From Alloprevotella sp. OH1205_COT-284 (GTDB lineage Bacteria > Bacteroidota > Bacteroidia > Bacteroidales > Bacteroidaceae): a stretch of 48,782 nt of DNA. Below, in pieces: positions 13,427 through 38,515 of this stretch. The stretch covers positions 1 through 48,782 of the forward strand of contig NZ_RQYI01000017.1 in the NCBI RefSeq assembly GCF_003859795.1, read 5' to 3'. Every line of letters begins with the position of its first letter. Position 1 is the stretch's first letter. The position numbers and the translations under genes were made by a program. The notes beneath the pieces were generated by a model. The model searched no databases, had not been told where the DNA came from, and saw only the letters and a program-made list of their open reading frames with translations.

Positions 13427-13812
13427 CGCGTACGCGCGCGCGCTTCCCTTATGGTTTGTTTTGCTTTCACTCCTTCCGCTTTTTTGTTTATCTATTTGAT
13501 ATTCCGACACTTATTTGCGAAGGCAAGTGAAGGCAAAAGATGAAACAGATTTTCAAGACACTGATATTCATCGGTTTATGGCGCATTTTTGCCTTCACCT
13601 GCCGGATTTTATGAGGCGTGGTGCAGAAAATAGCGGAAGTGAGTGAAAGCAAGTGAAAGGAGAAAGAAATTTTGCCTCCGCTAATGGAGTTCTGATTTTC
13701 AGTGCTTTGGATTTTTGAAAAAGGCTTTGCCTTCACTTGCCTTCGCACGGAAACACCAAATAATCAGACGCATAGGCGTTTTTGCGAAGGCAAAACGGCA
13801 AAAACAAAAAAA
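13427..13812 (+). repeat. GAAGGC palindromic element, copy 1
   Basis: 386 bp between the U32 promoter and the end of the helix-hairpin-helix gene. Order: an alternating GC tract (13427-13443, CGCGTACGCGCGCGCGC); arm GCTTTCACTCCTTCCGC (13463-13479); a 37-nt spacer (13480-13516); GCGAAGGCAAGTGAAGGCAA (13517-13536); central half-sites TTTTTGCCTTCACC (13587-) and GTGAAAGCAAGTGAAAGG (13643-13660); arm GCCTTCACTTGCCTTCGC (13729-13746); a 37-nt spacer (13747-13783); and a tail GCGAAGGCAAAACGGCAAAA then ACAAAAA (13784-13810). The same plan recurs at 24417-24790 and 38141-38515. No coding gene is supported in 13203-13932. Confidence 0.9.
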
Positions 13813-13932
13813 ACGGGGGCGGAGAGCACAAAAACAGCCGATTTCATCGACTTCGGGCGATAAGCGTTTTCGAGAGAAGAGGCGGAGGGAAGCAATCGGT
13901 GTGAAACGATGCGGAGAAAGGACGAAACGCGA

Positions 13933-16011
13933 TCAGAAAATGTGGCGAAGCTGAAAGGAGAGATCGTTTTGCGAAGAAGCGTCTATGCGTTGCATGCCGG
14001 TGCCGATGTGAGGCCGGTCGAACAAGCGGACGAAACTCCACTTTCCGCCCATTTCCCAACGTCGCCCGAAGGAGGCGAATGTTGTGAGAACGGTGGCAAC
14101 TCCCGTGTGGGCGAAAGCCGAAAAAGCGGTGACGCCTTTGAGTTGCGGCGTGTAGGCATAGAGGCGCGTGTCGTGATCGTGAGAGGAGAAGAGCGAGGCG
14201 AAGGCCGAGAGGTGTATGCGTGGCGAGAGCCGGCAGCGCAGACGGGAGGAGAGCATCGCACCCCACACGGGCGTCGGGCGGGTTTGACGGTGGTGGGCTG
14301 CGGCGTCGAGTGCCCATTGCCACATCAGACGGCCGAGCGTATGGAGCTGTTGATAGCGCAGGCGATGAGTGGAGATATATTCCAAGTGGCCGCGATGCCC
14401 GGTGATGTTGCGCTGACGGGTGCGAAACGAATAGAGAAAACGGCGTGTGACGAGAGGATGCCCCGACCATTCGTATTCGAGGCGTCCGTTCATGCCCGAC
14501 GAGGGAAGGTCGGCTCGAAAAGTAGGCGAAGGATGATGAAAAACATCGATGAAACCGCTTATTTCGCTCTTTTCGGAAAGACGATGACTGGCTGCGACGG
14601 AAAGGCCGTTTTCGTTTTGAACGGTGCTGCCGGCTTGCTCTGTTTGAGCGGAGGGGGCGACGAAACGAGGAGAGAAACTGCGCCCTTGCAACAGCAGTGT
14701 CCAGCGAGAATGGGGAGAGAAGCGGAGGCGTTGGGAAATGGCGTGGCGGCCGTGGTCGTCGATGGCGACTTCCCCCTGCCATGCCGTGCCGTTTCGGTAA
14801 AATCCGTGGTCGAAGCTCACGCCCGACGCGTAATGTCCGCGAAGGCCGTATCGGTTGTGGAGGCGCGGCGCGGGGCAGATCGGACGGCCGTAGCGCAGGT
14901 GCAGGAGGTTGAAGGCGAGATGAAGGCGTCGCGTGCGCCATTCGCCGTGTGCGCCCACGGAGGTGAGCGTCACGTTGCGGCGTCGCTCGATTTCCGTGAG
15001 CGATCGGTGCAGACCGCTCGTCTGAAAGGAACGCACGGTGTCGGCTTCGAGTCGCGCGTCGAGCCGGCGGTGAGAAACGAAGGTTTGCCAATGCCATTGC
15101 CTCCATTTGCCCGAATAGGCTGCGCCGCGCAGAAATTTCACTTCGTCGGCTGAGGTATGGGGGCGGAGGCGGGTGGGCAGGACGGGAAGGTTTTGAAGAC
15201 CTTGGAAAGGATGAAAAAAACGGGTACTGCCTTGCAGCAGTCCCAAACCGAAATGGGCGCGAAAATCGCCGAACAGGAGGTGGGCGGAGTTGTCGGGGCG
15301 ACGATGCGAAAAATAAATCGAGGTGTGGTCGTAGGGGCGATTGCCGTAAGCGGCGAAAGGTTCGCCAATATCGTTTTGCAGCGTGAAACCGTAGCGAATG
15401 GTGTTACGCCAAGAATATCGGTGGCGCAAGGTGTTGCCCATGGGAGCACCGAGGTAGTGGCGGCGAGGATTTTTCTTGAATTCATCGACGTTTTTTACGA
15501 TGAAACCCGCCCTTTTATAGAGCGGGAGGTCGATACGGCCGTCGAGGGTGTGGCGTCCGCCAAGAAAACGCTGCCGCCACGAAGAAGAGGGACGGAGGGT
15601 GTCGCCCACGACGACAAAAAGCGAGAGCCAACGGCGGTGTTTGTGGTGAAGGCCGTGGACGAGCATAAGGTCGCCCAAAGAGGAAAAAGCACGAAGTTTT
15701 TGCCGATAAGAGAGAATGGAGTCGATTTGGGCGGTCGTTAGGAAATCGAGCGTGAGGAGGTCCTCGCGAGTGGCGGTATTGAGGTTGAAGGGGGAGAGGT
15801 ATCGCTCTTCGAGGGTTTCGAGGAGTTGGGAGGCAGGGCGGTGCAAAGGCGTTTCGATGTGGTCTTCTTCTTCAAAATCGTCGGCAAGGTATTCGGCCGC
15901 GAAGTCTTCCCATGAAATGAAAGTTTCCCGCCATGGCGGCCGTTGGGCGTTGGCGGAAGCGGAGAGAAACGCGAAGCCGCAGACGAAAACGAGCAAAAAG
16001 GAAAACTTCAT
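13933..16011 (-). CDS. Helix-hairpin-helix domain protein, exported, beta-rich
   Basis: 692 residues from the ATG at 16011, giving a signal peptide (MKFSFLLVFVCGFAFLSASA, cleavage after NA). Residues about 65-125 form helix-hairpin-helix repeats of the ComEA type (PFNLNTATREDLLTLDFLTT and LRAFSSLGDLMLVHGL). The remaining 550 residues are Arg/His/aromatic-rich alternating strands typical of an outer-membrane beta-barrel and end in FQLRHIF. Similar Bacteroidota proteins carry an exported HhH segment before a barrel-like region; their role is unknown. It follows the thioredoxin-like lipoprotein gene by 56 bp on the same strand. Repeat copy 1 lies just beyond its stop. Confidence 0.8.
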   Translation of the reverse strand: MKFSFLLVFVCGFAFLSASANAQRPPWRETFISWEDFAAEYLADDFEEEDHIETPLHRPASQLLETLEERYLSPFNLNTATREDLLTLDFLTTAQIDSILSYRQKLRAFSSLGDLMLVHGLHHKHRRWLSLFVVVGDTLRPSSSWRQRFLGGRHTLDGRIDLPLYKRAGFIVKNVDEFKKNPRRHYLGAPMGNTLRHRYSWRNTIRYGFTLQNDIGEPFAAYGNRPYDHTSIYFSHRRPDNSAHLLFGDFRAHFGLGLLQGSTRFFHPFQGLQNLPVLPTRLRPHTSADEVKFLRGAAYSGKWRQWHWQTFVSHRRLDARLEADTVRSFQTSGLHRSLTEIERRRNVTLTSVGAHGEWRTRRLHLAFNLLHLRYGRPICPAPRLHNRYGLRGHYASGVSFDHGFYRNGTAWQGEVAIDDHGRHAISQRLRFSPHSRWTLLLQGRSFSPRFVAPSAQTEQAGSTVQNENGLSVAASHRLSEKSEISGFIDVFHHPSPTFRADLPSSGMNGRLEYEWSGHPLVTRRFLYSFRTRQRNITGHRGHLEYISTHRLRYQQLHTLGRLMWQWALDAAAHHRQTRPTPVWGAMLSSRLRCRLSPRIHLSAFASLFSSHDHDTRLYAYTPQLKGVTAFSAFAHTGVATVLTTFASFGRRWEMGGKWSFVRLFDRPHIGTGMQRIDASSQNDLSFQLRHIF

Positions 16012-16067
16012 TGTACGGTTGGGGGAGAAGCTACGATGTGCTTTTTGGGAAAAGGATGAGGAAGACG

Positions 16068-17078
16068 CTATTTCGCGTGCTTTTTCAGCTCGTCGATCCA
16101 TTGATCGAAAGGAATGTCGCGCGCCACGATCTTTCCTTTGGCATCGACGAAAATGCAACCGGGCACAAAGCGCACTCCGAAAGTGCGGACGAGCGGTGAG
16201 TCGAAGCCCTTGCCTTGGCAAATGACGTTGCGAAGGGTATCTCTCTCGGCGGCCTCTTTGATGTGGTCGGGCTTGTGGTCGATCGAAACCAATATCGTTT
16301 CCGCTTTTTTGCCGAAGGTGGAGCGGATTTTCCGGAGCTGTTGAAAGAGGACGTAGTTGTTGCCGTCCCAAGAGGCGGAAAAGGCGATGACGGCCGGGCG
16401 GCCTTTGAAAGTGGCGTTGTCAATACGTTTGCCGTCAATGTTTTTTGCCGAAAAACGGGGGAGCGGCGAGCCGACCGAGGCTTTCAGCTGCGGACGAAGC
16501 CGTCGGTCGAGTTGTTTGAGATAATGATTTTGAGGTTGCGATCGGCGCAAGAGGTCGAGCAAAGCGAGGGCGGGTTGCTGCTTGGGCGTTTTCTGACCGT
16601 CGAAATAGTCGTGGAAAACGGCCACGGCGGCCGGCGACGCGGGGTGGGTGCGCACGAATGTGGCGGCTTCCATTTCAGCATCGTTGGGAGATTTTTGGAT
16701 CAGACGAAGTCGAAATTCGGTGAGCAGTTCGTTGGTGGGCGTTCCGTCTATTTCTATCTCTTTCAGTCGGTTGGCATCTCCGCTGAGGTGAATTGTGGCG
16801 CCGGGTTCGGCCACAAGTGTGGTGGTGGAGAAGTTGGGATAGACAAGGGTGAGGAGGGTGGGTTCTTCGAGATGTCGCTCATAGGAGAATTTTCCCCTTT
16901 CTATCGTGATGCTGTCGATCCCTCCGCCGTTTCGGGGAGAAGCGTCGTCGGTGTAGGCCATGATGACGGCTTGATTGACACCGTCGATTTTTCCTTCGAT
17001 GCGTACGGTCTGTCGGTCAGGACGACAGGACGAGAGCAGTAAAGCTATCAGTGGAAAGAGTAAAAACAAAGGTTTCAT
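16068..17078 (-). CDS. Thioredoxin-like lipoprotein with DUF4369-type N-terminus and degenerate active site
   Basis: 336 residues from the ATG at 17078, giving a lipoprotein signal (MKPLFLLFPLIALLLSSC, Cys18). The first half (VRIEGKIDGVNQAVIMAY, LVAEPGATIHLSGDAN) matches the DUF4369-type domain that precedes thioredoxin folds in Bacteroidota envelope proteins. The C-terminal half is TlpA/AhpC-like (GSPLPRFSAKNIDGKRIDNA, VRTFGVRFVPGCIFVDAKGK). Where active members read WCxxC, this one has W237-Asp-Gly-Asn-Asn, so both catalytic cysteines are absent. It should therefore not act as a classical disulfide reductase; a binding or structural role is likely. It is preceded by a terminator and followed by the HhH gene. 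Confidence 0.85.
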   Translation of the reverse strand: MKPLFLLFPLIALLLSSCRPDRQTVRIEGKIDGVNQAVIMAYTDDASPRNGGGIDSITIERGKFSYERHLEEPTLLTLVYPNFSTTTLVAEPGATIHLSGDANRLKEIEIDGTPTNELLTEFRLRLIQKSPNDAEMEAATFVRTHPASPAAVAVFHDYFDGQKTPKQQPALALLDLLRRSQPQNHYLKQLDRRLRPQLKASVGSPLPRFSAKNIDGKRIDNATFKGRPAVIAFSASWDGNNYVLFQQLRKIRSTFGKKAETILVSIDHKPDHIKEAAERDTLRNVICQGKGFDSPLVRTFGVRFVPGCIFVDAKGKIVARDIPFDQWIDELKKHAK

Positions 17079-17177
17079 GCGGAAACGAAACAAATGGAAG
17101 AGTGGACAGATGGAAAGATGAGGAAAGAAACCGATGTGAGGGAATGCATACGCCGGTTCGGTCGATGTCTTTGTGAG

Positions 17178-17216
17178 AAAAAGAGGAACGCAAAGAGCTG
17201 TTGCTTTGCGTTCCTC
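17178..17216 (-). terminator. Rho-independent terminator after the TPR lipoprotein gene
   Basis: A 13-bp perfect stem (GAGGAACGCAAAG / CTTTGCGTTCCTC) with an 8-nt loop, followed on the minus strand by TTTTTCTC. It separates the TPR lipoprotein gene from the thioredoxin-like gene. Confidence 0.85.
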
Positions 17217-17235
17217 GTATGTTCACATGAGGGGG

Positions 17236-18927
17236 TTATTTGACAAGATTGCGGAACGCGGCATTGCCGGAGAGCTTGACAAATTCAAGATCTCGGGCGG
17301 CTTTGGCTGCCAGCGTGCCGTCGAGCGAAATGGCTTTTCGGAGAGCCGCCACTGCCTCTTCGGCTTGATTGGAGCGAGCGGCGACAATGGCCGAAAGATA
17401 GGCCGTGAGGGCATCTGCATGGGCAACGGAGGCCAATGTCTGACGAGCGGCATTGTAGTCCTTGTTGAGAATTTGCGCGAGGGCGGCACTGTTGCTCTTC
17501 ACGTCCGAAAGGCTTTGGGCGGCTTGTGCATAGTTGCCGCGAGCGATTTGGATGTTGCCCAACACTTCGTTGTAGTTGGCGGCGGTGAGGGCTTTTCCGA
17601 TGAGGCTTTCGGCTTGGTCGAGATGACCTTCTTTCAGTGCGAGGAGGGCGGCATTGGCGTTGGCTTCCGTGAGATTGCCGGCTTGCGGCAAAATGGTTTT
17701 GGCCGCCGCATAATCGCCCTTGGCATAAGCCACCTGTGCAAGGCCGTTGTAAGCGCGCTTGTCGGTGGGATAGATTTGAGTGGTGGTCTCGAAAATGGAT
17801 TTGCGTTCGTCGAGATCGGAGGTGAGCGTGGCGGCATAGAGAAGCTCTTCCACACTTAGTTTACCCGGTTCGTCTTTGTATTGTTGGCGAATTTCGTCGT
17901 CGGTGCGTCCGATCAGGCGGTAGTTGATCGTGAGGCGTGCGCGGCGGAGTTCGGGCAACACTTCGTCAGCCAATTCGCGGAAAGCGAGCGAGAGGTTTTT
18001 GATTTGCTGTTCGCGCTCTTCGGGATCTTTATACATGGAAAGAACACGAATGATCACGTCTTTGTCTTGGATGTTGCTTTGTGCGACCAATTCTTGAAAA
18101 CCCTCCCAGTCTTCGGCTGTGTATTTGGCATCAATGTGGGTGTTGAGTTTGGTGCGTTTGAGCTGTTCCTCCACATATTTGGCGGCGGTGTTTTGGCGAT
18201 TTTCGGCCAAAGTGGTGTTGAAGTTCAGTGCACCGTCGGGAGAGGCATAAGCCGACACCTGAATGTTGTCGAGGGCATAGCCTTTCTGATCGGCTTTGAT
18301 TTCTCGAAGCACCTTGACGAAATCTTGTACGGAAGTGGCGTTCAGTTCGCTGGTGCGGATTTTCGCTTGGTTGATGAAGTATTTGATTTGTGCATCTTGC
18401 TGTTGTACGATCTGACGTTGGTAGGCGTCGGCGGCCACGGCGGTGTTGGCACTTTCCACCGTGCGGTAAACGAGCTGCGAGGTGGAAACGACACCGTCGG
18501 CCACTTTCACGGCCGGAATTTGTACGGATTTCTTGCCAATTTTGGCATCGAAGGTGAGATAGAGTTCGCTTTGCGACATTTCGGGCGTGTAGGCGAAGTT
18601 TGACTTCATCACGTAGTTGCCGCCCATTTTATAGGAAATGGTCTGTTCGTTGCCAACGACTTTCTCGCCTTGGAAAGTAGCGGGTTGTCCCACGGCTTTT
18701 CCGCCGGCATAGCGAAGTTCGGGAGTGACGGTGACAACGGCTTTTTTCTTCATGTATTTTTCGGGAAAGCGTCCGTTGATGGTGGTTGGCACTTCCTTAC
18801 CGACGGCTTCGAGGGGAGAGGGGGTAATGGTGAAGTTGTCGGCCGTAAGGGGATTCAGCTTACTGCTGCAAGAGCTCAAAGCTGTGATGCCTATCACGGC
18901 CAGAGCGGCGTAAAGGTTTGTTCTCAT
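17236..18927 (-). CDS. TPR- and OmpA-like-domain lipoprotein
   Basis: 563 residues from the ATG at 18927; lipobox Cys19 in the segment ITALSSCSS. Residues about 30-180 are beta-rich (VTVTPELRYAGGKAVG). Around residues 230-290 lies an OmpA-like peptidoglycan-associated region (IQVSAYASPDGALNFNTTLA followed by ENR). The C-terminal 200 residues are helical tetratricopeptide-type repeats rich in Ala (YNGLAQVAYAKGDYAAAK, NYNEVLGNIQIARGNYAQAA). It is probably an outer-membrane lipoprotein facing the periplasm and helping to link the membrane to the wall, similar to conserved Bacteroidales proteins of unknown function. It lies downstream of lgt, the enzyme needed to lipidate it, and has its own terminator. 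Confidence 0.85.
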   Translation of the reverse strand: MRTNLYAALAVIGITALSSCSSKLNPLTADNFTITPSPLEAVGKEVPTTINGRFPEKYMKKKAVVTVTPELRYAGGKAVGQPATFQGEKVVGNEQTISYKMGGNYVMKSNFAYTPEMSQSELYLTFDAKIGKKSVQIPAVKVADGVVSTSQLVYRTVESANTAVAADAYQRQIVQQQDAQIKYFINQAKIRTSELNATSVQDFVKVLREIKADQKGYALDNIQVSAYASPDGALNFNTTLAENRQNTAAKYVEEQLKRTKLNTHIDAKYTAEDWEGFQELVAQSNIQDKDVIIRVLSMYKDPEEREQQIKNLSLAFRELADEVLPELRRARLTINYRLIGRTDDEIRQQYKDEPGKLSVEELLYAATLTSDLDERKSIFETTTQIYPTDKRAYNGLAQVAYAKGDYAAAKTILPQAGNLTEANANAALLALKEGHLDQAESLIGKALTAANYNEVLGNIQIARGNYAQAAQSLSDVKSNSAALAQILNKDYNAARQTLASVAHADALTAYLSAIVAARSNQAEEAVAALRKAISLDGTLAAKAARDLEFVKLSGNAAFRNLVK

Positions 18928-18995
18928 GTATGTTTGTATTGAGTTTGATTTGCGAAAATGTCCGATGTGAGGAACTTTGGTCGTGTGCAACGCCA

Positions 18996-21223: not shown

Positions 21224-21243
21224 CTCACAAAATTTATGTAAAT

Positions 21244-24416: not shown

Positions 24417-24790
24417 TTTTTTTGTTTTTTGCGTTTTGCCTTCGCTAAAACACCTATATATTTGATATACAGCGAGTCTTGTGCGAAGGCAAGTGAAGGC
24501 AACGCGTTTTTCGAAATGATAACCAATTGAATGTCAGCATGTTTTCGTGAAGGCAAAAATCGTTTTTGCTTTCACCTGCTTCCGCCGTTTGAGAGGGAAA
24601 AGGGCGCATTTCGGAGGGTGTGAAAGCAAAATTTGATTTTAAGAGGCTGTTTTTCAGACATTTTGCGGATCTTGCCTTCACTCTCCTTTCACTTGCCTTC
24701 GCACAAGACTCGCTGTATATCAAATATATAGGTATTTTAGCGGAGGCAGTGAAGGCAAAAATATGAACATAGGTAACGCGCGTGCGCGCG
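24417..24790 (-). repeat. GAAGGC palindromic element, copy 2 (inverted orientation)
   Basis: 374 bp with the same parts as copy 1 read on the minus strand. The GC tract is at 24776-24790. An outer arm GTGAAGGC...GCGGAGGC encloses a 37-nt spacer at 24703-24739. Central half-sites lie at 24545-24630, including GTGAAAGC and GTGAAGGCAAAAA. The second outer palindrome has a 37-nt spacer at 24446-24482, followed by GTTTTGCCTTCGC and a T-rich tail to 24417. It lies between the WbqC-like gene and the secreted protease gene. No coding gene is supported within it. Confidence 0.9.
24438..24747. repeat. 59-nt near-perfect inverted repeat inside copy 2
   Basis: Positions 24438-24496 and 24689-24747 are reverse complements with two mismatches (TTC/TCC in the palindrome and ACACC/ATACC in the spacer). 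The 37-nt spacers of the two outer palindromes are therefore the same sequence in opposite orientation, 36 of 37 identical. In copies 1 and 3 the two spacers differ from each other. A 192-bp segment lies between the arms. Confidence 0.9.
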
Positions 24791-25416: not shown

Positions 25417-28400
25417 ATGAAAGACATTTTCAAACTTGCACTATTGGCCTGCATCGCAGTTCCCTCAGCGATGCAGGCACAAATGGTTGTCGATCGAAAG
25501 ATGTATCCGGATTATAGCACAGTGATCCGCCCTGATTCCTCGTTGCTCCGCTATACTCCCAAACGTTCTTCGAGAGGTGTAGTTGCGTCCCCCATCAGTG
25601 AACGTCCCATGATGGTGAATAATGCGAATACGAAGCATTTTCCACCTATCTTCAACCAAGATGGCGGATCGTGCGGATCGGCTTCTCGTATCGGTTATAT
25701 GTTTACTCACGAAATAAACTCTTACCGAGACGCCGATGCTTCTTCTATGCTTAATCGATACCCCACGCACTTCGTTTGGCTGCATACAAGTGGCAACTCG
25801 GGCAAGGATCAATTCGTGCAGTTCATCGGTGTCCCCTCGGCACAGACTTATGGCAGCCAAACCTATTCTCCTCTGTTCGGTTATCAAGAGGAAACAAATA
25901 ACAATTTTGGCTGGATGACCGGTTATGAAAAGTGGTTTGAAGCTATGCACAACCGCATGCTGCAACCCTTTAATCTTCCCATGTCGGTAGAAACGGAAGA
26001 AGGTCGTGAGATACTCAAAAATTGGCTTTGGAATCATAACGGTGATCCTGATTTTCATTCCGGAGGTATTGTGGGGATCGGAGTGGCTTCCGGTGGTAAT
26101 TGGAAAAAAATTCCTGCAACTGATGCCAACAACGCTGCCCATGTAAGTGGAATGTGGTATGTGAAAGAGTGGGGTAAGTCCGTGGATCATGCTCTCACGA
26201 TTGTGGGCTACGATGATCGCATTGAGTTTGACCTTGACGACAATGGAATAGCCGGTGAAGTCGACAAAGACGAAGTCGGCGCATGGATTGTGGCCAACTC
26301 GTGGGGTAACGGTTGGTGTAACCGCGGATTTATCTATTGCCCATATGCTCGGGCAACTCCTGTTCAGACAGAAAATGGAAAAGTGCGCGGCTGGTATCAA
26401 CCGGAAATCTATCGTGTGCGCAAAAACTATCGTCCGCTTCGCACCATTAAGGTGAAAATGGATTACAGTCACCGATCGGAAATTATGCTCACAGTGGGAG
26501 TTGCTTCCGATCTCAATGCCAAAGTACCGGAACGTACTCTTGAATTGGAATATTTTCGTTTTGCCGGCGATGGTAAAAACGGCGATGACATTCCTGCACC
26601 GGCGATTCCGATGCTCGGTCGATGGGCTGACGGCAAGTTGCATGACGAACCGATGGAATTCGGTTATGATTTGACCGATCTGACTACCGGATTTGATAAG
26701 TCCAAACCTTTGAAGTATTTCTTCAATGTTCATGCCACCACTCGTAGAGATCGAAATAAAACGTCTTCTAATTTGGCAAAAGGTTCGGGACACATCCATT
26801 ATGCCGCAATTTTGGATTACGAACACGATCATCAAGGTGTGGAAACTCCTTTTTTCCCGGGAGAAAACAAAGTGGTGGAAGTACCCGGTGGCAAAATCAC
26901 CACCATCACCGCTATTGTATATGGTGAACAATACTATGCACCTCGAAATCTCACTCTCGTTGATGGAAAACTGAATTGGCAAAAGCCAATAAAAAGCAGT
27001 CATGCCATAAAGCATTATAATATTTATAAAGATGGCGTTAAAATTGGTACTTCCGAACAGAATACTTATGATTTCTCCGGAGCCGGTTTGTATGCCGTTT
27101 CTGCCATATATGAAAACAATGTAGAGAGTTCTAAAATCGTATTCATGGCTCCCGTTCAACCTCAAATAACCAATGTGGCTGCCGATTTGAAAACGAATGG
27201 ATTTGTTATACCTGATATTTTCAGTAAACATTTCGATCAAGTAACCATAGAATATTGGATAAAACCTCGCAAACTCGTCGATTGGAATAACTCGGCAGGA
27301 CCGGGATGGGGAAATTTTCTTTGTCATGCAGATCGGTCGGGTGGTTTCTCTGCCGGCTGGAACACCAATGGAGATCGTGTAAGAACGGCCGATGGAACCT
27401 TGCGTAAGAATGTTTGGACGCATGTTGCTATGGTCGTGGCACGCAGCACTTTCCGTGTTCACATCAATGGTGGAACTGCCACTTATATCACAAGCCGAAA
27501 ATACTCGGGTTTGGGAGGATTCGGAAATCTCGTTTTCCATGCCGGAGGCAATTCTGCCAACGACGCTGTTTATGATGAAATCCGCATTTGGAGCACTGCT
27601 CGCTCCGGCTACCACATCCGTGATGCCTACAAGAGTGAATTTAGCGGAGAGGTTATGCCTACTGGACTTTTGGCTTATTATAAAGGTGATATCATCGACA
27701 TCAACGGTGTGCCTCACTTGCGTGATTGTGTAGGCGGACATCATGCTCCCATTAGCAATGAGATGGCTTCGAATTATGAGCAAGTAAACAATGAAAACGT
27801 CTTCAAGAAGGGTGTAGATGCGAGTGTCAACCAGAGCAACACCAAAATTGTTACGGCCAATAAAATTATAGCCGGACAGCCTACCGAAATTTCTGCCACA
27901 TATTCCGATGCTGTCAGCTCTCTTGTGTGGACGATAGAAGCCGCAGGTTTGCACAATGTCAAGACTGCTGCACCTATGGTTGTCTTTCCGAAATCCGGTA
28001 ATTATACCGTTACACTCACTGCATCCAGTTTCGATGGTAAACAAAAAGTGATTGTGAACAAAGAAGTAAAAGTTGAGGAGGCTCCTGCACCAGATGCTAC
28101 ATTTGTGGCCTCAATGTCGCAAGTCGCAGCCGGGCAACGCATCAGTTTTATTCCCAACAAATCAATCGACGGTTATTTTTATCAATGGGATATGCCCGGG
28201 GCAGAACTTACATCGTCAAATGCCATAACAGCTGCAACTCAGTATAATCTATTTGGTGAATACACTGTTACTTTGACCGTAACATCTCCCTCCGGAGAAA
28301 CTGCCACTTCTTCTCAAAAAGTGAAAGTACTAAAAGTTGCTCCTGAGGCCGATTTTCGCATAAAAGATCCAGTTGTACTCAAAGAACAAAAAACCGGCTT

Positions 28401-29943
28401 TATCGATGCTTCCAAGTTTAATCCCTCCTCTTGGACGTGGTTGATCAAGAGTAACGGCATGAGCTATGCCGCAAATGGGCAAAACCCCAATTTCTCAATC
28501 GATGCTCCCGGCGTCTATGATGTAACCCTGATGGTCAAGAATGAGGCAGGTGTCAGCACTAAAACAATGGAAAGAGCTTTGACCGTAGTAAACGCTCTGT
28601 CTAAAAATGGTTTGAGTTTTGGGCAGAATGCTCGAATCAAAATGGAGCAAGTGCCCATCGCCAAAGATTCCGAAAATATCACCGTGGAATGGTGGATGAA
28701 TCCCGGAAAACTGGTCGACGACTGCTGTGGTATAGGTGACCAAGAAAGCACTTTCTTTATCAAAGTCGATGCCATCGGAAAACTCATTGTGTATCGCAAC
28801 GGACGCAGTGTGATGTCCTATACCGATGTGGTGATTCCCGGTCAGTGGCATCATTATGCTGTGACCTTTGAAAAGAATATTGTACGCATCTATCGTGATG
28901 GCGTTCAAATGCGCCAAGGCGTCATTGTGGGCAAATTCCCCGATATGACTCAATTCAACATCAGCAGCGATGCCGCCCCGATGAATGGACAAATCGATGA
29001 GTTCCGCATTTGGGGGACTGCACTTAGTGTGGAGAAGATTAGAACCTATGCCAATGAACCTATCATCGACACGAAAGCCGCAGAAGAAGGAAAAGACAAA
29101 CTCTTGCTTTACTATGATTTTAATCAGAACGGAGGTGCTGTAGAAGATCGTACCTCGACCGGCAACAAGGGAATTCGCACCGGATTCGGCCCTGATGGAG
29201 ATGCATGGGGACTTTCGAACGGAGTATTTAGTTTGAATTACGAGGCCACCGTGGAAGACGTTACCTCCAAGTATCTGGTTAATTATAGAAAATCGTTTGC
29301 CCACACAACCAAGCAAATCAACAATACACAAAGCGGTCGCTGGTATGAGTTGAAAGATTGGAAATTGGAGAACACCGCCACAACGGAAGACGGAAAGATC
29401 ATTTCGGGTGTGCATATGGACAAACAAAAGAACAATTGCTTCACCTTTACTACCGGATGGGATAACTTCCCTAATTTGGCCAATCACAAAGCCTATCAGG
29501 TGGTGACTCTTCCTGCCGGAACTTATACATTCGTTTCGATTTACGATGGTCAATATGGCGGTTCGGCCATGGCTTCCTATTTGGTTGCGGCCATAGGAGG
29601 AACATTGCCTGACACCGACATGCTTGACAGTAAGGCTCTTGCCTACGGTGAAATGACGAGTGCGGGATCGAATGCCGTAAATTCCGTAACGTTTACCTTG
29701 CCGGAAGAAACGGAAGTGGCTCTCGGGCTTGTGATCAACATGAGCGGCAATAGTATTGCTTCCATACAGCAATTCAAACTCATGTACACACCGCTCGGCC
29801 AGCTGAATGCCATCGGAGAAGTAGAGGCAGATATTTTGAAGAACGGTCGTGGCGAATTGTATGATTTGAGTGGTCGCCGCATTGCTCAACCACAAAAGGG
29901 ACATATCTATATTCAAAACGGACAACGCATCTTCGTGAAATGA
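25417..29943 (+). CDS. Secreted papain-like (C1) cysteine protease with LamG and PKD domains
   Basis: 1508 residues from the ATG at 25417, which gives a signal peptide (MKDIFKLALLACIAVPSAMQ, cleavage near AQ); the upstream in-frame part is not signal-like. The protease domain (about 70-330) has Gln81 and Cys86 in NQDGGSCGSAS, His258 in SVDHALTIVGYDD, and Asn294 in WIVANSWGNGW, a complete papain triad. A LamG-like domain follows at about 608-740 (VTIEYWIKPRKL). Three PKD-like repeats span about 810-1058 (YTVTLTASSFDGK, YTVTLTVTSPSGE). A second LamG lies at about 1080-1205 (ITVEWWMNPGKL). The last residues (GELYDLSGRRIAQPQKGHIY) resemble short C-terminal sorting or anchor tails of Bacteroidales exported proteins. 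It is probably a surface or secreted protease acting on host or matrix proteins. A terminator follows. Confidence 0.9.
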   Translation: MKDIFKLALLACIAVPSAMQAQMVVDRKMYPDYSTVIRPDSSLLRYTPKRSSRGVVASPISERPMMVNNANTKHFPPIFNQDGGSCGSASRIGYMFTHEINSYRDADASSMLNRYPTHFVWLHTSGNSGKDQFVQFIGVPSAQTYGSQTYSPLFGYQEETNNNFGWMTGYEKWFEAMHNRMLQPFNLPMSVETEEGREILKNWLWNHNGDPDFHSGGIVGIGVASGGNWKKIPATDANNAAHVSGMWYVKEWGKSVDHALTIVGYDDRIEFDLDDNGIAGEVDKDEVGAWIVANSWGNGWCNRGFIYCPYARATPVQTENGKVRGWYQPEIYRVRKNYRPLRTIKVKMDYSHRSEIMLTVGVASDLNAKVPERTLELEYFRFAGDGKNGDDIPAPAIPMLGRWADGKLHDEPMEFGYDLTDLTTGFDKSKPLKYFFNVHATTRRDRNKTSSNLAKGSGHIHYAAILDYEHDHQGVETPFFPGENKVVEVPGGKITTITAIVYGEQYYAPRNLTLVDGKLNWQKPIKSSHAIKHYNIYKDGVKIGTSEQNTYDFSGAGLYAVSAIYENNVESSKIVFMAPVQPQITNVAADLKTNGFVIPDIFSKHFDQVTIEYWIKPRKLVDWNNSAGPGWGNFLCHADRSGGFSAGWNTNGDRVRTADGTLRKNVWTHVAMVVARSTFRVHINGGTATYITSRKYSGLGGFGNLVFHAGGNSANDAVYDEIRIWSTARSGYHIRDAYKSEFSGEVMPTGLLAYYKGDIIDINGVPHLRDCVGGHHAPISNEMASNYEQVNNENVFKKGVDASVNQSNTKIVTANKIIAGQPTEISATYSDAVSSLVWTIEAAGLHNVKTAAPMVVFPKSGNYTVTLTASSFDGKQKVIVNKEVKVEEAPAPDATFVASMSQVAAGQRISFIPNKSIDGYFYQWDMPGAELTSSNAITAATQYNLFGEYTVTLTVTSPSGETATSSQKVKVLKVAPEADFRIKDPVVLKEQKTGFIDASKFNPSSWTWLIKSNGMSYAANGQNPNFSIDAPGVYDVTLMVKNEAGVSTKTMERALTVVNALSKNGLSFGQNARIKMEQVPIAKDSENITVEWWMNPGKLVDDCCGIGDQESTFFIKVDAIGKLIVYRNGRSVMSYTDVVIPGQWHHYAVTFEKNIVRIYRDGVQMRQGVIVGKFPDMTQFNISSDAAPMNGQIDEFRIWGTALSVEKIRTYANEPIIDTKAAEEGKDKLLLYYDFNQNGGAVEDRTSTGNKGIRTGFGPDGDAWGLSNGVFSLNYEATVEDVTSKYLVNYRKSFAHTTKQINNTQSGRWYELKDWKLENTATTEDGKIISGVHMDKQKNNCFTFTTGWDNFPNLANHKAYQVVTLPAGTYTFVSIYDGQYGGSAMASYLVAAIGGTLPDTDMLDSKALAYGEMTSAGSNAVNSVTFTLPEETEVALGLVINMSGNSIASIQQFKLMYTPLGQLNAIGEVEADILKNGRGELYDLSGRRIAQPQKGHIYIQNGQRIFVK

Positions 29944-32812: not shown

Positions 32813-33562
32813 ATGTCTGACCAACCCATTATCGGCCGCATACACTCTTTTGAATCCATGGGCACCGTTGACGGCCCCGGACTTCGTTTCGTCACTTTCC
32901 TGCAAGGTTGCCCCATGCGTTGCCAGTTCTGCCACAATCCCGATACTTGGGAAATAGGCGGAGAAGCCAAACATCTGTTCACCCCCGAACAGCTGATGAA
33001 GGAAGTTCGCAAATACAAAAACTTCATCAAGTCCGGCGGCGTCACCTGCACCGGCGGCGAACCCTTGGTGCAAGCCGAATTTGTGGAGGCTTTCTTCAAA
33101 CTCTGTCATGCCGAAGGGCTTCACACTGCCCTCGACACTGCCGGAGCGGTGTGGAACGAAGCGGCACGTCGCGCTGCCGCCGAAGCCGATCTCATTCTGT
33201 TCGACGTTAAAACCGTTGATGATACGCTCCACAAATCCTACATCGGTGTTTCTCGAAAGAACAACGCCGCCTTTCTCGATTATCTTCTCGACATTCGCAA
33301 GCCCGTTTGGATACGCCACGTCGTCGTACCCGGCATCACCGATCGCGACGATCGCCTGCATGCCGTCGGTGCGTATTTGGAGAAATACGCCTCCATTATC
33401 GAGCGCATCGAAGTGCTGCCTTATCACATTATGGGAAGCTACAAATATGAAAGTATGGGCATGAAGTATCCGCTCGAAGGTGTCGAACCGCTTTCTCGTG
33501 AACGTGCCGACAATGCCGTGCGTATCTTCCGTGAGCATCTCGATGTGAAAGTAGTGGGTTGA
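32813..33562 (+). CDS. pflA: Pyruvate formate-lyase activating enzyme
   Basis: 249 residues. It is a radical SAM protein with the [4Fe-4S]-binding motif CPMRCQFC (Cys33, Cys37, Cys40), the N-terminal GRIHSFESMGTVDGPGLRFV typical of PflA, and the SAM-binding GGVTCTGGEPL. It creates the glycyl radical on Gly720 of PflB. It lies directly downstream of pflB and is probably transcribed mainly from the same promoter, through the intergenic hairpin. Confidence 0.97.
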   Translation: MSDQPIIGRIHSFESMGTVDGPGLRFVTFLQGCPMRCQFCHNPDTWEIGGEAKHLFTPEQLMKEVRKYKNFIKSGGVTCTGGEPLVQAEFVEAFFKLCHAEGLHTALDTAGAVWNEAARRAAAEADLILFDVKTVDDTLHKSYIGVSRKNNAAFLDYLLDIRKPVWIRHVVVPGITDRDDRLHAVGAYLEKYASIIERIEVLPYHIMGSYKYESMGMKYPLEGVEPLSRERADNAVRIFREHLDVKVVG

Positions 33563-33685
33563 TTGTGCGGATGTCGGTTCGTTTCATGTGGTTCACATGG
33601 GGTTGAGGCGTTTCCGAATGTGAAAAGAACTTGTCTTTCGGACAGCTTATCGGTCTTAATGTATAAGAATAAGCAGTTTTATCCC

Positions 33686-33693
33686 TAAATTTG
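33686..33693 (+). promoter_or_regulatory. Candidate nadB promoter -7 box
   Basis: TAAATTTG fits TAnnTTTG and lies 26 bp before the nadB start. The -33 element is not clear. Confidence 0.5.
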
Positions 33694-33719
33694 CAGCTGA
33701 AACTCATTCTTCTCTCTTC

Positions 33720-35306
33720 ATGATTCATCAATATGATTTTCTTGTCGTCGGTTCGGGTGTTGCCGGCATGAGTTATGCCTTGCAAGTGGCCGAAGAGCGT
33801 CCCGATTGCCGAGTCGCATTGATCTGCAAAACAAACATCGAAACCTCCAACACCTCCAAAGCCCAAGGCGGTGTTTCGGCAGTGACGAATTTCGAGGTCG
33901 ATAATTTTGAAAAGCATATCCAAGACACCCTTGTTGCCGGTGATCATCTGAATGATCCCGACGCGGTGAGGTTGGTGGTGGAGAGAGGTCCCTCCGGCAT
34001 CGGTCGTCTTGTGTGTTGGGGCGTCAATTTCGACCGCAAGAAAGACGGAACTTATGATCTGCACAGAGAGGGCGGCCATTCCGAATTTCGCATTCTGCAC
34101 CATGCCGACGACACGGGGTTTGAAATACAGCGCGGACTCATCGAAGCCGTTCGTCGGCAAGCGAACATATCGGTGCTTGAACGTCATTTCGCCGTAGAAA
34201 TCATCACGCAACACCATTTGGGCATTGAGGTGACGCGTCGCACTCCCGACATCGAATGTTACGGTGCTTATATTCTCAACGAAAGCACCGGCAAGATCGA
34301 CACCTTCCTTTCGCGTGTCACCGTTTTGGCCACCGGAGGTTGCGGTGCGGTCTATGCCAATACCAGCAATCCGACGATAGCCACCGGCGACGGCGTGGCC
34401 ATGGCTTATCGTGCAAAAGCAACCGTGCAAGACATGGAGTTTGTGCAATTTCATCCCACCGTACTCTATAATCCTGCCGAAACTCACCCGGCCTATCTCA
34501 TCACCGAAGCCATGAGAGGCTATGGCGGTATTCTCCGGCTGCCCACAGGCGAGGAGTTCATGCAGAAATATGACGAACGCCTTTCGCTTGCTCCGCGCGA
34601 CATTGTGGCGCGTGCCATTGATGCCGAGATGAAGCGTTGCGGTCTTGACCACGTTTGTCTCGACGTCACCCACAAAGATCCGGAAGAAACAAAACGTCAT
34701 TTCCCCAATATCTACGCCAAGTGTATGAGTCTTGGCATCGACATCACGCAGCAATACATTCCCGTTGCGCCTGCCGCCCACTATCTTTGCGGCGGCATCA
34801 AGGTCGATCTTTCCGCCCGTTCGAGCATCAAGCGGCTGTATGCCGTCGGCGAGTGTGCCTGCACAGGCCTTCACGGTGGAAATCGTTTGGCCTCCAATTC
34901 GCTCATCGAAGCCGTGGTCTATGCCGAAACCGCCGCCGCACATTCATTAGAACATCTTGACGAATATCGGTTTCATGAGCACATTCCGGAGTGGAATGAC
35001 GAGGGAACGCTCTCCAATGATGAGCGCGTGCTGATCACCCAAGCCGCTCGTGAAGTCGGCCAGATCATGTCGGCCTATGTGGGCATTGTGCGTTCCGATC
35101 TCCGTTTGCGTCGGGCGTGGGTGCGACTCGATCTGCTCTACGAAGAAACGGAGGAGCTGTTCAAGCGCGTCACCGCCACCCCCGAACTTTGCGAACTGCG
35201 CAACATGATCAACGTGGGCTATCTCATTGCCCGGCAAGCCATGGAGCGCAAGGAAAGCAGAGGTTTACACTACACCATAGACTACCTCAAACCCCAACGT
35301 CCGTAA
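33720..35306 (+). CDS. nadB: L-aspartate oxidase
   Basis: 528 residues. The FAD-binding motif is at the N-terminus (FLVVGSGVAGMSYAL). The family blocks SKAQGGVSAV, REGGHSEFRILHHADDTG, VLATGGCGAVYANTSNP, QFHPTVLYN, HYLCGGIKVD and GLHGGNRLASNSLIEAVVYA distinguish NadB and related succinate dehydrogenase flavoproteins. The HREGGHS block and the lack of a covalent-FAD succinate dehydrogenase context favour NadB. It oxidises L-aspartate to iminoaspartate for quinolinate and NAD synthesis; under anaerobic conditions fumarate is the likely acceptor. nadA and nadC are not in this window. Confidence 0.93.
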   Translation: MIHQYDFLVVGSGVAGMSYALQVAEERPDCRVALICKTNIETSNTSKAQGGVSAVTNFEVDNFEKHIQDTLVAGDHLNDPDAVRLVVERGPSGIGRLVCWGVNFDRKKDGTYDLHREGGHSEFRILHHADDTGFEIQRGLIEAVRRQANISVLERHFAVEIITQHHLGIEVTRRTPDIECYGAYILNESTGKIDTFLSRVTVLATGGCGAVYANTSNPTIATGDGVAMAYRAKATVQDMEFVQFHPTVLYNPAETHPAYLITEAMRGYGGILRLPTGEEFMQKYDERLSLAPRDIVARAIDAEMKRCGLDHVCLDVTHKDPEETKRHFPNIYAKCMSLGIDITQQYIPVAPAAHYLCGGIKVDLSARSSIKRLYAVGECACTGLHGGNRLASNSLIEAVVYAETAAAHSLEHLDEYRFHEHIPEWNDEGTLSNDERVLITQAAREVGQIMSAYVGIVRSDLRLRRAWVRLDLLYEETEELFKRVTATPELCELRNMINVGYLIARQAMERKESRGLHYTIDYLKPQRP

Positions 35307-35404
35307 GTCCCCTTTCCCCGCCCCGAAAGAACAATGTCCGCCCTCCCCCGATGCGTTGCAAATGCACCGTCGTTTGTGCGCCGTTTCTTTTCGGATAGTT
35401 GTTT

Positions 35405-35436
35405 TTTGTCCACGTCAAAAGAAATCTGTATTTTTG
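35405..35436 (+). promoter_or_regulatory. Promoter of the biotin-dependent decarboxylase cluster
   Basis: TTTG (35405-35408), 20 nt, then TATTTTTG (35429-35436). A second TATTTTTG lies at 35462-35469 without a well-placed -33 box. Confidence 0.75.
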
Positions 35437-35500
35437 CTCCGCTGAAATTGCACACAAATACTATTTTTGCGCCAAAAGAATAATCAACACATCAATCGAT

Positions 35501-37054
35501 ATGAGTGAACAATTAAAGAAAATCAAGCAGCTCGTCGAGCTTCGTGAGAAAGCCCGTCTTGGTGGCGGCGAAGTGGCTATCGACAAGCAGCATGCCAAAG
35601 GCAAAGCCACGGCACGCGAACGCATCGCCCTCCTCGTGGACGAAGGAAGTTTTGAAGAAATGGATATGTTCAAGCTTCACCGTTGTCATGATTTCGGCAT
35701 GGAGAAGAAGCAATATTTCGGCGACGGCGTGGTGTGCGGCAGTGCCACGATCAATGGCCGTTTGGTTTATGTTTATGCCCAAGACTTCACCGTAAACGGC
35801 GGTTCTCTTTCCGAGACGATGGCCGAAAAGATATGTAAGGTGATGGATCAGTCGATGAAAATGGGTGCTCCCTGCATCGGCTTGAACGACTCCGGCGGCG
35901 CACGCATTCAAGAAGGTGTGAATGCCCTTGCCGGTTTTGCCGAAATTTTCCAACGCAATATCGAAGCATCGGGCGTTGTTCCTCAGATTTCGGGCATTTG
36001 CGGTCCTTGTGCCGGCGGTGCGGTTTATTCGCCTGCCTTGACTGACTTCATCGTCATGCTCGAAGGCATCTCCTATATGTTCCTCACCGGCCCCAAGGTG
36101 GTGAAGACCGTGACGGGCGAAGATGTTACCCAAGAAGATCTTGGAGGTGCCGGTGTGCACGCTAAGAAGAGCGGTGTGGCACATTTCACCGCCAAAAACG
36201 AAGAAGAGTTTGCCGCTCTCATTCGCAAATTGCTTTCGTTCATCCCTCAAAACAATCATGAACGTGCGCCTCGCTTGGAGTGCAACGACCCCATTGACCG
36301 AAAGGAAGACCGTCTGAACAGCATCATCCCCGACAACCCCAACCAGGCCTATGACATGTATGAAGTCATCGGTGCCGTGGTAGACAACGGAGAGTTTCTC
36401 GAAGTGCAACGCGATTTCGCACAAAACATCATCATCGGTTTCGCCCGTTTCAATGGCGAGAGCGTCGGTGTCGTGGCCAATCAGCCCAAGGTCTACGCCG
36501 GTGTGCTCGATGTCAATGCCAGCCGTAAGGCCGCTCGTTTCGTGCGTTTCTGCGATGCGTTCAACATTCCCATCGTCAGCCTTGTGGATGTGCCCGGTTT
36601 CCTCCCCGGAACCGGACAGGAGTACAACGCTGTCATTTCTCACGGTGCCAAACTTCTTTATGCCTACGGCGAAGCCACTGTCCCCAAGGTGACCGTCACC
36701 CTTCGTAAGAGCTATGGCGGCAGCCACATCGTGATGGGCAGCAAGCAGCTCAAAACCGACCTCAACTACGCATGGCCTTCGGCCGAAATCGCAGTGATGG
36801 GAGCCGGCGGTGCCGTGGCCATTCTCAGTGCCAAAGCCGCCAAAGAGCAAGAAGACCCCAAAGCCTATCTGGCTCAAAAGGAGAAAGAATACAACGACCT
36901 CTTCACCAATCCTTACAAAGCGGCCGAATACGGATACATCGACGATGTCATCGAACCGCGCAACACCCGTTTCCGCATCTGCCGCGCCCTTGCGCAACTC
37001 GCCACCAAGAGCGAGAGCCGTCCGGCCAAGAAGCATGGCAATGTTCCTCTTTAA
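35501..37054 (+). CDS. mmdA: Acyl-CoA carboxyltransferase subunit (methylmalonyl-CoA decarboxylase alpha / propionyl-CoA carboxylase beta)
   Basis: 517 residues from the ATG at 35501 ([20 protein letters not shown]). Both crotonase-like halves of the family are present: [13 protein letters not shown] with [20 protein letters not shown], then [20 protein letters not shown] with GKLLYAY-like and [12 protein letters not shown] segments. It transfers CO2 between (S)-methylmalonyl-CoA and biotin on the carrier protein encoded two genes downstream. In Bacteroidales the usual role is decarboxylation to propionyl-CoA at the end of the succinate-to-propionate route. The spacing to the next gene is 12 bp. 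The direction of the reaction and use of a sodium pump cannot be read from this protein. Confidence 0.93.
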
Positions 37055-37066
37055 TCCGTTGTCGCA

Positions 37067-37345
37067 ATGAAAACTTTTGAATACAATTTCGGAGGCAAAA
37101 CGGTGCGCATCACTTTCAATGAGCGTCGCGGCATCGTCACGGCAGTCGAAGAAGACGGCCGGCCTTTCACTCCCTGTGAGGATCGCATGCCTATCTATGC
37201 CGGTTTGATCTGTCTTGCCCTCGCCCAATATGAGATAGAGGAAGTACACGACGATGAAACCGAAATCATCACCCTCGACCACAAACGAACGCCTTGGAAC
37301 AATCCCACGCGTCAGTTCAATAACGATTCCTACTTTAACCGATAA
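37067..37345 (+). CDS. Small conserved protein of the decarboxylase cluster, OadG-C-terminus-like
   Basis: 92 residues, between the carboxyltransferase and the biotin carrier genes (12 and 6 bp gaps), so certainly co-transcribed. There is no signal peptide or clear membrane helix. The second half (IYAGLICLALAQYEIEEVHD, then DETEIITLDHKRTPWNNP) recalls the C-terminal part of gamma (OadG-like) subunits in Bacteroidota, where a helix is followed by an HDxE...T...W pattern. If so, it is a gamma-type adaptor without the N-terminal membrane anchor. This likeness is judged by eye and is uncertain. Otherwise the function is unknown. Confidence 0.75.
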   Translation: MKTFEYNFGGKTVRITFNERRGIVTAVEEDGRPFTPCEDRMPIYAGLICLALAQYEIEEVHDDETEIITLDHKRTPWNNPTRQFNNDSYFNR

Positions 37346-37351
37346 GAAACC

Positions 37352-37810
37352 ATGAGAACATATAGCTATAACGTAAACGGCGCACGCTACGATGTGACCA
37401 TCGAGTCCATTCGCGATCAAGTGGCCAAGTTCAACGTCAACGGCGTGGCTTTCGATGTGGAAATTCTCGGTGCTCCGCTCACCGAAGGCGATTTGCCCGA
37501 AGTGAGTGCCGCCGCTCCTGCCGCCTCAGTTTCGGCTCCCGTCCCTGCTGCCGCTTCGACTCCCGCCGCTCCTGCGGCCAAAGGTGCCGCCGGCGCCGGC
37601 ACACCCGTCAAAGCTCCGCTTCCCGGCGTAGTGACCAAGGTGCTTGTAGCCGCAGGTCAAGCCGTCAAAAAGGGAGAAACCGTCGTTGTCTTGGAAGCCA
37701 TGAAAATGGAAAACAATATCACCGCCGAATGCGACGGTACCGTGACCGGCATTTGTGTTGCCGCCGGCGACAGCGTGATGGAAGGCACGACGCTCGTCAC
37801 CATTGAATAA
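37352..37810 (+). CDS. Biotin carboxyl carrier protein of the decarboxylase cluster
   Basis: 152 residues. An N-terminal beta-rich part (MRTYSYNVNGARYDVTIESI) is followed by an Ala/Pro/Val-rich linker (about residues 50-85) and a C-terminal biotinyl domain (KAPLPGVVTKVLVAAGQAVK). The biotin attachment motif EAMKM has Lys118. It carries carboxybiotin between the carboxyltransferase and a partner, either a biotin carboxylase or a membrane beta subunit. Neither is encoded in the rest of the window. It is the last gene of the unit and is followed by a strong terminator. Confidence 0.95.
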   Translation: MRTYSYNVNGARYDVTIESIRDQVAKFNVNGVAFDVEILGAPLTEGDLPEVSAAAPAASVSAPVPAAASTPAAPAAKGAAGAGTPVKAPLPGVVTKVLVAAGQAVKKGETVVVLEAMKMENNITAECDGTVTGICVAAGDSVMEGTTLVTIE

Positions 37811-37885
37811 ACAAACGGCTCTGTCGCTTTCGAGCCTGCGGACTACCGCTTGTTCTCGTGGAGCAATTCTGCCGACAGCATTCGC

Positions 37886-37925
37886 AATCGTGTCGAAATC
37901 GAAAGGTTTCGACACGATTTTTTTT
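37886..37925 (+). terminator. Terminator of the decarboxylase cluster
   Basis: A 13-bp perfect stem (AATCGTGTCGAAA / TTTCGACACGATT) with an 8-nt loop, followed by eight T in total. It is a strong rho-independent signal that confirms the operon ends after the biotin carrier gene. Confidence 0.92.
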
Positions 37926-38140
37926 AATTTGCATCGGACTCTGTGTCGACGATGCCTTCTTTCGCTTAGCTTGATTTTCCGACATGGAGAGGCCGCAGCA
38001 ATATCTCTCAAAGCAACCCCAAGCAAGACATCAATGGGCGAACGACCTCCAATCCGGCGAACACCACCTTTGAGGTAGAATTTTCTGCCTCTGAGCTAAG
38101 AACAGCTACCTCCCGGAAAAGTAGAAAAACAACTCCCCCT

Positions 38141-38515
38141 CGCGCGCACGCGCGCGTTCCCATAGCATCACTTTTTGCCTTCACTGCCTTCGCAAAACAA
38201 CGCAATCCCATGAGTATCAGCTTGTTTTTAGCGAAGGCAAAGTGAAGGCAAAACAAAAAACATTTTCACAAACGTCTGTCCTTCAATCCATTGGCTCGTT
38301 TTTTTGCTTTCACCGCCCCGAAATTGAGTGTTTTTTCTCCTCAACAGTGAAAGCAGGTGAAAGCAAAAGGGTGATTTTGCCTTCACCGTACATACTCTGA
38401 TTTTCAACTATTTGAAAAATCCTCCAAACTTTTGCCTTCACTTGCCTTCGCAAGAAACGCACTAAAAATCAAAATGATAATCGTTTTTGCGAAGGCAAAA
38501 CGGCAAAAACAAAAA
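38141..38515 (+). repeat. GAAGGC palindromic element, copy 3
   Basis: 375 bp in the same orientation as copy 1. Order: GC tract CGCGCGCACGCGCGCG (38141-38156); GCCTTCACTGCCTTCGC (38177-38193); a 37-nt spacer (38194-38230); GCGAAGGCAAAGTGAAGGCA (38231-38250); central TTTTTGCTTTCACC (38301-38314) and GTGAAAGCAGGTGAAAGCAA (38347-38366) and TTTTGCCTTCACC (38375-38387); GCCTTCACTTGCCTTCGC (38434-38451); a 37-nt spacer (38452-38488); then GCGAAGGCAAAACGGCAAAA (38489-38508) and ACAAAAA. It lies between the decarboxylase terminator and IS remnants. No gene is supported in 37926-38640. Confidence 0.9.

Follow-up and report, generated by a model that had tools for sequence, protein, structure and literature searches.

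Elements in the window

The stretch analysed here, hereafter the window, comprises 48,782 nucleotides of Alloprevotella sp. OH1205_COT-284 (contig NZ_RQYI01000017.1, assembly GCF_003859795.1). It carries three copies of an intergenic palindromic element in which short inverted half-sites enclose 37-nt spacers. Copy 1 lies at 13427–13812 on the plus strand (profile core 13433–13809), copy 2 at 24417–24790 on the minus strand (core 24420–24786) and copy 3 at 38141–38515 on the plus strand (core 38145–38514). Positions and orientations given in the initial annotation were confirmed by reading the sequence and by the profile cores, and the order of parts claimed there was found in all three elements. 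The outer left half-sites of copy 1 are degenerate and the pattern was unmatched on that side; its left spacer is 37 nt by hand count. The two 37-nt spacers of copy 2 are near-perfect reverse complements of each other (an inverted pair, 97% over 61 nt). Copy 3 shares ~90% identity with a copy on a different contig (L098). Alternating CG tracts, a Z-DNA-type sequence, were located at 24777–24790 on the minus strand in copy 2 and at 38141–38154 on the plus strand in copy 3.

The ends first assigned to the elements proved too narrow. An array of GAGGTAG/CTACCTC words on the left and the conserved word GGGCGGTTTCATCG on the right both lie outside them. Two GAGGTAG words are found to the left of copy 1 (13347–13395, plus strand). 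Copy 3 is preceded by GAGGTAG at 38072 and CTACCTC at 38106 (38072–38112, plus strand), which belong to the composite element, and is followed by GGGCGGTTTCATCG at 38541–38554 on the plus strand.

Two other features of the window were recorded. A cobalamin riboswitch (5344–5642, minus strand; Rfam RF00174, 75 bits) adjoins minus-strand genes at 2209–5752. Beside copy 2, positions 25501–29943 of the plus strand encode a predicted surface-type protein of 1480 amino acids with Peptidase_C1, PKD, Laminin_G_3 and DUF5013 domains.

Copy number and anatomy in the window's genome

The window's own genome consists of 2,305,284 bases in 93 contigs. An iterated profile, applied to the window and 60 stretches around word or BLAST matches, identified 57 full-length copies and 6 copies that are interrupted or meet a contig end. 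What was described as a three-copy family occupies at least 63 loci, counted from 100 of 106 word matches listed, and a few more are possible. BLAST with copy 3 scored 40 near-full-length places among 87 candidates. The word TGCCTTCACTTGCCTTCGC, with at most one mismatch, has 106 matches in this genome compared with 0 for a reversed control word.

The core is 367–371 bp long in 55/57 copies (367 bp in 12, 368 in 16, 369 in 14, 370 in 12 and 371 in one), and the two remaining cores are 374 and 377 bp. The fixed 37-nt spacer holds genome-wide, being present in the left hairpin of 47/55 and the right hairpin of 51/55 measurable copies, with 36 or 38 nt in the rest; in these counts 9 or 10 nt were subtracted by hand when the match began at the outer half-site, and 2/57 copies were unmatched on each side. 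Spacer sequences are diverged, as claimed, but not wholly arbitrary: a weak CTGA-n-TCAG centre recurs by eye.

From left to right, the parts are the GAGGTAG/CTACCTC array, the CG tract, TTTTGCYTTCAC-TGCCTTCGC, the first 37-nt spacer with its CTGA-n-TCAG centre, GCGAAGGCAA-GTGAAGGCAA, the central half-site set, TTTGCCTTCAC-TTGCCTTCGC, the second 37-nt spacer, GCGAAGGCAAAACGGCAAAA, an A-rich stretch and GGGCGGTTTCATCG, the last of which is conserved on the right side in many copies. The array left of the CG tract is palindromic with a 21-nt period, the commonest spacings being 21, 42 and 63. At least two array words occur in 48/57 left flanks, compared with 7/57 right flanks and 8/54 control stretches. 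The profile matches both strands in nearly every full copy, the element being palindromic throughout. All 34 listed of the 38 CG-word matches in this genome fall at elements, by eye. Only one end bears the CG tract here, as first described, whereas in those sister-species loci that were read both ends bear it.

Half-site constancy and spacer divergence

Among the 57 full-length copies, the 150 conserved columns have a mean pairwise identity of 94.8%. The 109 most variable of 337 core columns are near saturation, with 33.8% identity compared with 35.0% expected for independent columns. Because both column sets were picked by conservation, the contrast between them arises partly by construction, and the one meaningful comparison is that with the independent expectation. 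As many as 33/57 copies have no relative at or above 0.55 identity in the variable columns, yet their half-sites depart from consensus by only ~6–7%, measured on 88 columns fixed by motif. Copies with nearer relatives (14) depart by 3.5% and those with close ones (10) by 2.2%. Half-sites decay, but far more slowly than spacers.

The same pattern was examined at shared loci in two sister species that bear the element, Prevotellaceae bacterium Marseille-P2826 (G033) and Alloprevotella sp. oral taxon 473 (G043). Seven same-locus pairs in ~87% identical DNA were compared, five with both flanks aligned and two with one. The element ends agree at 307/307 aligned positions with one gap, a figure biased by the fact that most compared ends were found by exact match. 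The interiors agree at 1159/1508 positions (77%). The initial annotation had argued that fixed length with diverged sequence points to a structural or protein-binding constraint, and this argument is supported both within the genome and between species.

Another candidate explanation is that the element is a structured RNA or a transcription terminator or attenuator. One copy folds at −121.8 kcal/mol compared with a shuffle mean of −76.9 kcal/mol (z −9.7, 100 shuffles), but a stable fold follows from the inverted half-sites alone. RNAalifold and mutual information revealed no complementary covariation beyond the invariant half-sites in the 57 copies, and non-complementary pairs predominate among the columns that covary most strongly. 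No Rfam match was obtained at the window elements at the gathering threshold. Genes around the copies have no clear orientation preference (16 −−, 14 +−, 12 ++, 8 −+ and 7/57 unresolved), as counted with a simple gene finder in which one predicted gene overlaps a core by 62 nt. The structured-RNA option of the initial annotation, for which a covariation check had been proposed, was rejected on the absence of complementary covariation and of an Rfam match, and we regard it as very improbable.

Sister species and phylogenetic spread

By its named relatives the window's genome belongs to Alloprevotella and not to Porphyromonas. Three of the 57 other genus members share the layout with different words, and the four related Alloprevotella species hold ~40–67 copies each. 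Alloprevotella sp. Lung230 (G057) has the word TTTTGCCTTCACTGCCTTCA, with 78 matches at 67 loci, 65 of them near full-length; its element lengths are mostly 183–276 and not fixed. Oral taxon 473 and Marseille-P2826 both have TTTTTGCTTTCACAACCTTCAC, with 87 and 83 matches, respectively. Because the polynucleotide phosphorylase (Pfam) of the window scores best against exactly these three relatives (93, 93 and 92%), the family looks clade-bound, as judged from this one gene. The next matches are in genomes G005 (91%) and G022 (also 91%, at a lower score).

A gapped pattern applied to 399 family genomes returned copies only in the window's genome and Lung230. Since the same pattern missed the element-bearing Marseille-P2826 and oral taxon 473, it is a weak test outside the genus. 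The CG word is present in 24/58 genus genomes, and because such loci were read in five genomes only (the four element-bearing species and G017), the layout with other words may exist in further species. Weak single BLAST matches in G005, G047, G034, G017 and G028 were, on reading, not elements. G017, a genome without recognised elements, has a lone element-like CG tract just upstream of a predicted gene (L126, ~1661). In G028, palindromic words of the CTCGGCGGGAAATATA type form a run between genes (L127, ~1840–1930), perhaps an analogous array in other letters. Viral contigs contained 0 exact word matches, and a plasmid collection searched with one copy gave no match. No account of this family was found among the listed titles and abstract openings of the open PMC literature, and the papers listed by one search there do not mention Alloprevotella.

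Spacing and chromosomal zone

Copies keep their distance from each other. The smallest of the 39 gaps between copies on one contig in the window's genome is 9,160 bp; none is below 9 kb compared with 15.3 expected, and the minimum was reached in 0 of 20,000 simulations. In Lung230 the minimum of 50 gaps is 5,919 bp, and 7 are below 9 kb compared with 18.1 expected. The null in both cases was uniform placement over whole element-bearing contigs, not over intergenic sites only. Among the matches listed, gaps extend down to ~9.7 kb in oral taxon 473, by eye, and the minimum in Marseille-P2826 is 11,463 bp.

The Marseille-P2826 genome has a 2.76-Mb contig, a near-complete chromosome, for which all 41 forward and 27 of 42 reverse matches were listed. 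Among these, 42/43 elements fall within 437–2,055 kb (Rayleigh p ~4e-7), the outlier being one two-mismatch end at 2,550 kb. When 19 stretches of 20 kb sampled from the empty zone were scanned with an end profile, no element was detected; the profile did add a single end at 1,402.7 kb. GC skew, taken from 40 coding-strand-corrected stretches of 20 kb, placed the origin at ~1.42–1.48 Mb by best fit, or up to ~1.75 Mb by eye, and the terminus near 0.30–0.34 Mb; roughly half of the variance is accounted for by this fit. Over the origin range 1.42–1.75 Mb, 34–37/43 elements are in the origin-proximal half. Within 200 kb of the skew terminus (0.32 Mb) there is 1/43 compared with 6.2 expected, and within 400 kb 5/43 compared with 12.5. 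As to a conserved gene content of the Marseille-P2826 empty zone, some loci beside elements in the window's genome and Lung230 map into that zone. The dnaA gene lies within ~4 kb of an element in oral taxon 473 and within 1 kb in Lung230, but ~20 kb away in the window's genome; a tie between the element zone and dnaA is at most tentative, because the origin placed by GC skew is at a different position.

A spacing of at least 9 kb is also compatible with a topological element, in which the Z-DNA-prone CG tract and the cruciform-prone palindromes would absorb supercoils or bind gyrase, and the copies would mark supercoil domains of ~10 kb. The near confinement of the CG word to elements in the window's genome and the palindromic nature of the whole element favor this explanation. 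However, Z-DNA and cruciforms require neither strict half-site constancy nor species-specific words, and paired changes do not keep the inverted arms complementary. We consider a topological role unlikely.

Locus sharing, turnover and mobility

Fifteen Marseille-P2826 elements adjoin a flank that is element-bearing in oral taxon 473 as well, and in 8 of these both flanks align. Conserved positions were rejected for the window's genome and Lung230, in which only one flank is shared, in 22 locus pairs. Copies on the same contig are more alike than others (0.696 vs 0.671; 0 of 5000 shuffles). Ten close pairs share 390–613 bp, in most cases extending over the left array and into the right flank, so the copied unit is larger than the core. 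An inversion between Marseille-P2826 and oral taxon 473 ends at two Marseille-P2826 elements 11.5 kb apart (L278 vs L198), which suggests that elements recombine.

Repeats of other kinds were seen in Marseille-P2826. A rearrangement point relative to oral taxon 473 at 1.692–1.695 Mb (L202, ~11950–14700) has near-identical short repeats inside a surface-protein-like gene, whose product we take to be BspA-type. At 1.601–1.608 Mb (L325, ~1500–7720) there are tandem units of ~925 bp, each holding ~720 bp that match a single oral taxon 473 stretch.

Turnover raises the question of mobility. The elements could be a non-autonomous family like the miniature inverted-repeat transposable elements (MITEs), mobilised in trans by a transposase specific for the half-sites. 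Immunity of targets near bound transposase would then space the copies ~10 kb or more apart, and only copies with good half-sites would propagate. The elements share with MITEs inverted ends, multiple copies and, judged from size, a lack of coding capacity, and CG tracts lie on both sides in the Lung230, Marseille-P2826 and oral taxon 473 loci read. Mobility also fits the lack of loci shared on both flanks by the window's genome and Lung230, the duplicates of up to 90% identity with their shared unit of several hundred base pairs, the likeness of same-contig copies and the two oral taxon 473 elements without a Marseille-P2826 counterpart. Species-specific half-sites, the somewhat greater decay of older copies and the spacing exclusion point the same way. 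With target immunity, mobility accounts for exclusion and turnover no less well than does the protein platform proposed below.

Other results do not favor mobility. No target-site duplication was detected in Lung230 (63), Marseille-P2826 and oral taxon 473 (22) or the window's genome (54), the best of 11 comparisons giving P=0.017, which is not significant; old duplications could have decayed. Among the listed matches, paired ends are less than ~0.7 kb or at least 5.9 kb apart and none encloses a transposase-sized gene. The Y1 (IS200/REP-type) family, the sole transposase family searched, gave no match in the window's genome, Marseille-P2826 or oral taxon 473 (95.6, 96 and 96% complete, respectively) and one match in Lung230. 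Mobilisation by a REP-associated tyrosine transposase (RAYT) was rejected for the three genomes without a Y1 match. Over half of the copies lack a close parent yet have nearly intact half-sites, which mobility alone does not account for in old copies. The 15 Marseille-P2826 elements beside shared flanks and the ~1.1-Mb empty zone of that chromosome likewise count against movement. The miniature-mobile-element option of the initial annotation is the main rival of the platform reading, with the missing duplications, transposase-sized insert and Y1 match and the loci common to two sister species counting against it, and we regard it as a tentative explanation at less than even odds.

Interpretation

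These results suggest that the elements are non-coding, DNA-level platforms with multiple protein sites and a chromosome-scale role, partly like Noc and SlmA sites. We assign this reading a probability of roughly 0.43. A protein site is the best fit of the three options in the initial annotation, the others being the mobile element and the structured RNA. Function in place is favored because half-sites are nearly constant while spacers are scrambled, in copies without close relatives and at loci shared by sister species. A chromosome-scale role is favored because copies exclude each other, have no clear gene-orientation preference and, in Marseille-P2826, occupy an origin-side zone.

Each platform would comprise some twelve half-sites of the GCCTTC/GAAGGC type, set out in a fixed pattern of direct (9–10 bp) and inverted pairs and adjoining the CG tract and the 21-nt palindromic array. 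One or more putative sequence-specific proteins would bind it, through recognition words that vary by species. Selection on the half-sites, plus their spacing in the species of the window, would largely hold copies in place. The platforms would most likely serve to organise the nucleoid, to help in segregation or to keep division away from the nucleoid, much as Noc and SlmA sites do. New copies would arise occasionally by copying elsewhere, often on the same contig, and recombination between copies would shuffle the chromosome.

Several observations weigh against a platform held in place by selection. Departure from the half-site consensus is 2.2% among young copies but reaches 7.4% among the most isolated ones. 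Randomisation of the spacers is incomplete, because in 35/57 copies the nearest neighbour still exceeds the 99th percentile of the null for independent columns. Besides the exact-match bias in the ends compared between Marseille-P2826 and oral taxon 473, at least two further shared loci (L183, L232) have one end with 2 mismatches. Two oral taxon 473 elements have a flank that aligns to an element-free place in Marseille-P2826. No locus is shared on both flanks by the window's genome and Lung230, and among 67 Lung230 loci a gene is shared on one flank in the 22 locus pairs. Recent duplicates, the up to 90% identical copies, exist. Recognised copies occur in only 4/58 genus genomes, which is odd for a core cell-cycle function.

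The chromosomal zone is also imperfect. The terminus side in Marseille-P2826 is thinned, not free of elements, and most of the empty stretch falls to a single side of the inferred terminus. With the origin taken at 1.45 Mb the arms are lopsided, the 1.13-Mb arm holding 25 elements and the 1.63-Mb arm 18. The dnaA gene, at 1.08 Mb, is inside the zone and apart from the GC-skew origin, and the origin side of the zone is itself inferred from sparse skew. Finally, the binding protein, its spreading and the cellular role are inferred.

A bolder version of the platform reading, which we find doubtful, is that the elements constitute a previously undescribed Bacteroidota chromosome-landmark system of composite centromere-like or nucleoid-occlusion-like sites. 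Its code would turn over with the putative binding protein between sister species, and copies would exclude each other over ~10 kb through protein spreading. To our knowledge, nucleoid layout and division over the nucleoid are poorly known in Bacteroidota. Some 40–67 constrained, spaced sites in each of four species would offer a direct handle on Bacteroidota nucleoid organisation. A mobile family, on the other hand, would illustrate clearly how target immunity can shape an entire chromosome in nature. In both cases, species that combine one layout with differing half-sites form a natural series for recognition-code change at sixty places simultaneously.

Comparison with known systems

The elements were compared with known repeat families and protein sites. 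As the initial annotation held, they are not clustered regularly interspaced short palindromic repeats (CRISPR), being dispersed single elements rather than a single array in which direct repeats alternate with unique spacers, as judged from the repeat layout and not from cas genes. One half-site, TTTCAC, is similar to half of what we take to be the parS consensus of the parS/ParB system. Half-sites of parS abut, whereas the inverted half-sites of the elements are tens of bp apart.

Like BrickBuilt and other Porphyromonas gingivalis MITEs, the elements are intergenic non-coding Bacteroidales repeats with inverted ends and an internal or adjacent array. BrickBuilt is described as having the terminal inverted repeat GAGACCTTTGCA, the 23-nt repeat AGAYCATARTATCCTCTCRTRTG and 19 copies (PMC4596501). 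Neither word occurs within 2 mismatches in any of the 57 copies (0/57), so BrickBuilt was rejected. Like repetitive extragenic palindromic (REP) sequences and bacterial interspersed mosaic elements (BIMEs; PMC2817692), the elements are intergenic palindromic units with inverted pairs and species-specific words. Unlike REP/BIME with RAYT, they lack a Y1/RAYT match in 3/4 species, the window's genome, Marseille-P2826 and oral taxon 473, and the copies stand apart rather than clustered.

The closest likeness is to the binding sites of Noc (NBS) and SlmA (SBS). One report places SlmA and Noc sites in the origin-proximal two thirds of the chromosome and absent from the terminus, with 24–52 SlmA sites per nucleoid (PMC3573117), and another has Staphylococcus aureus Noc covering 8–10 kb around its sites (PMC5540599). 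The elements resemble such sites in being tens of putative sequence-specific sites and, in Marseille-P2826 and if the skew-based origin is right, in being enriched on the origin side. In contrast to Noc and SlmA sites, which are absent at the terminus, the elements are lopsided and merely thinned near the inferred terminus of the one chromosome examined, that of Marseille-P2826. They also differ in keeping a mutual distance and in switching words between sister species. A further difference, which again counts against the platform reading, concerns size and composition: each NBS or SBS is short and single and its protein is known, whereas the elements are multi-site composites of ~190–600 bp. 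The likeness to Noc and SlmA sites is partial, one of distribution and not of membership.

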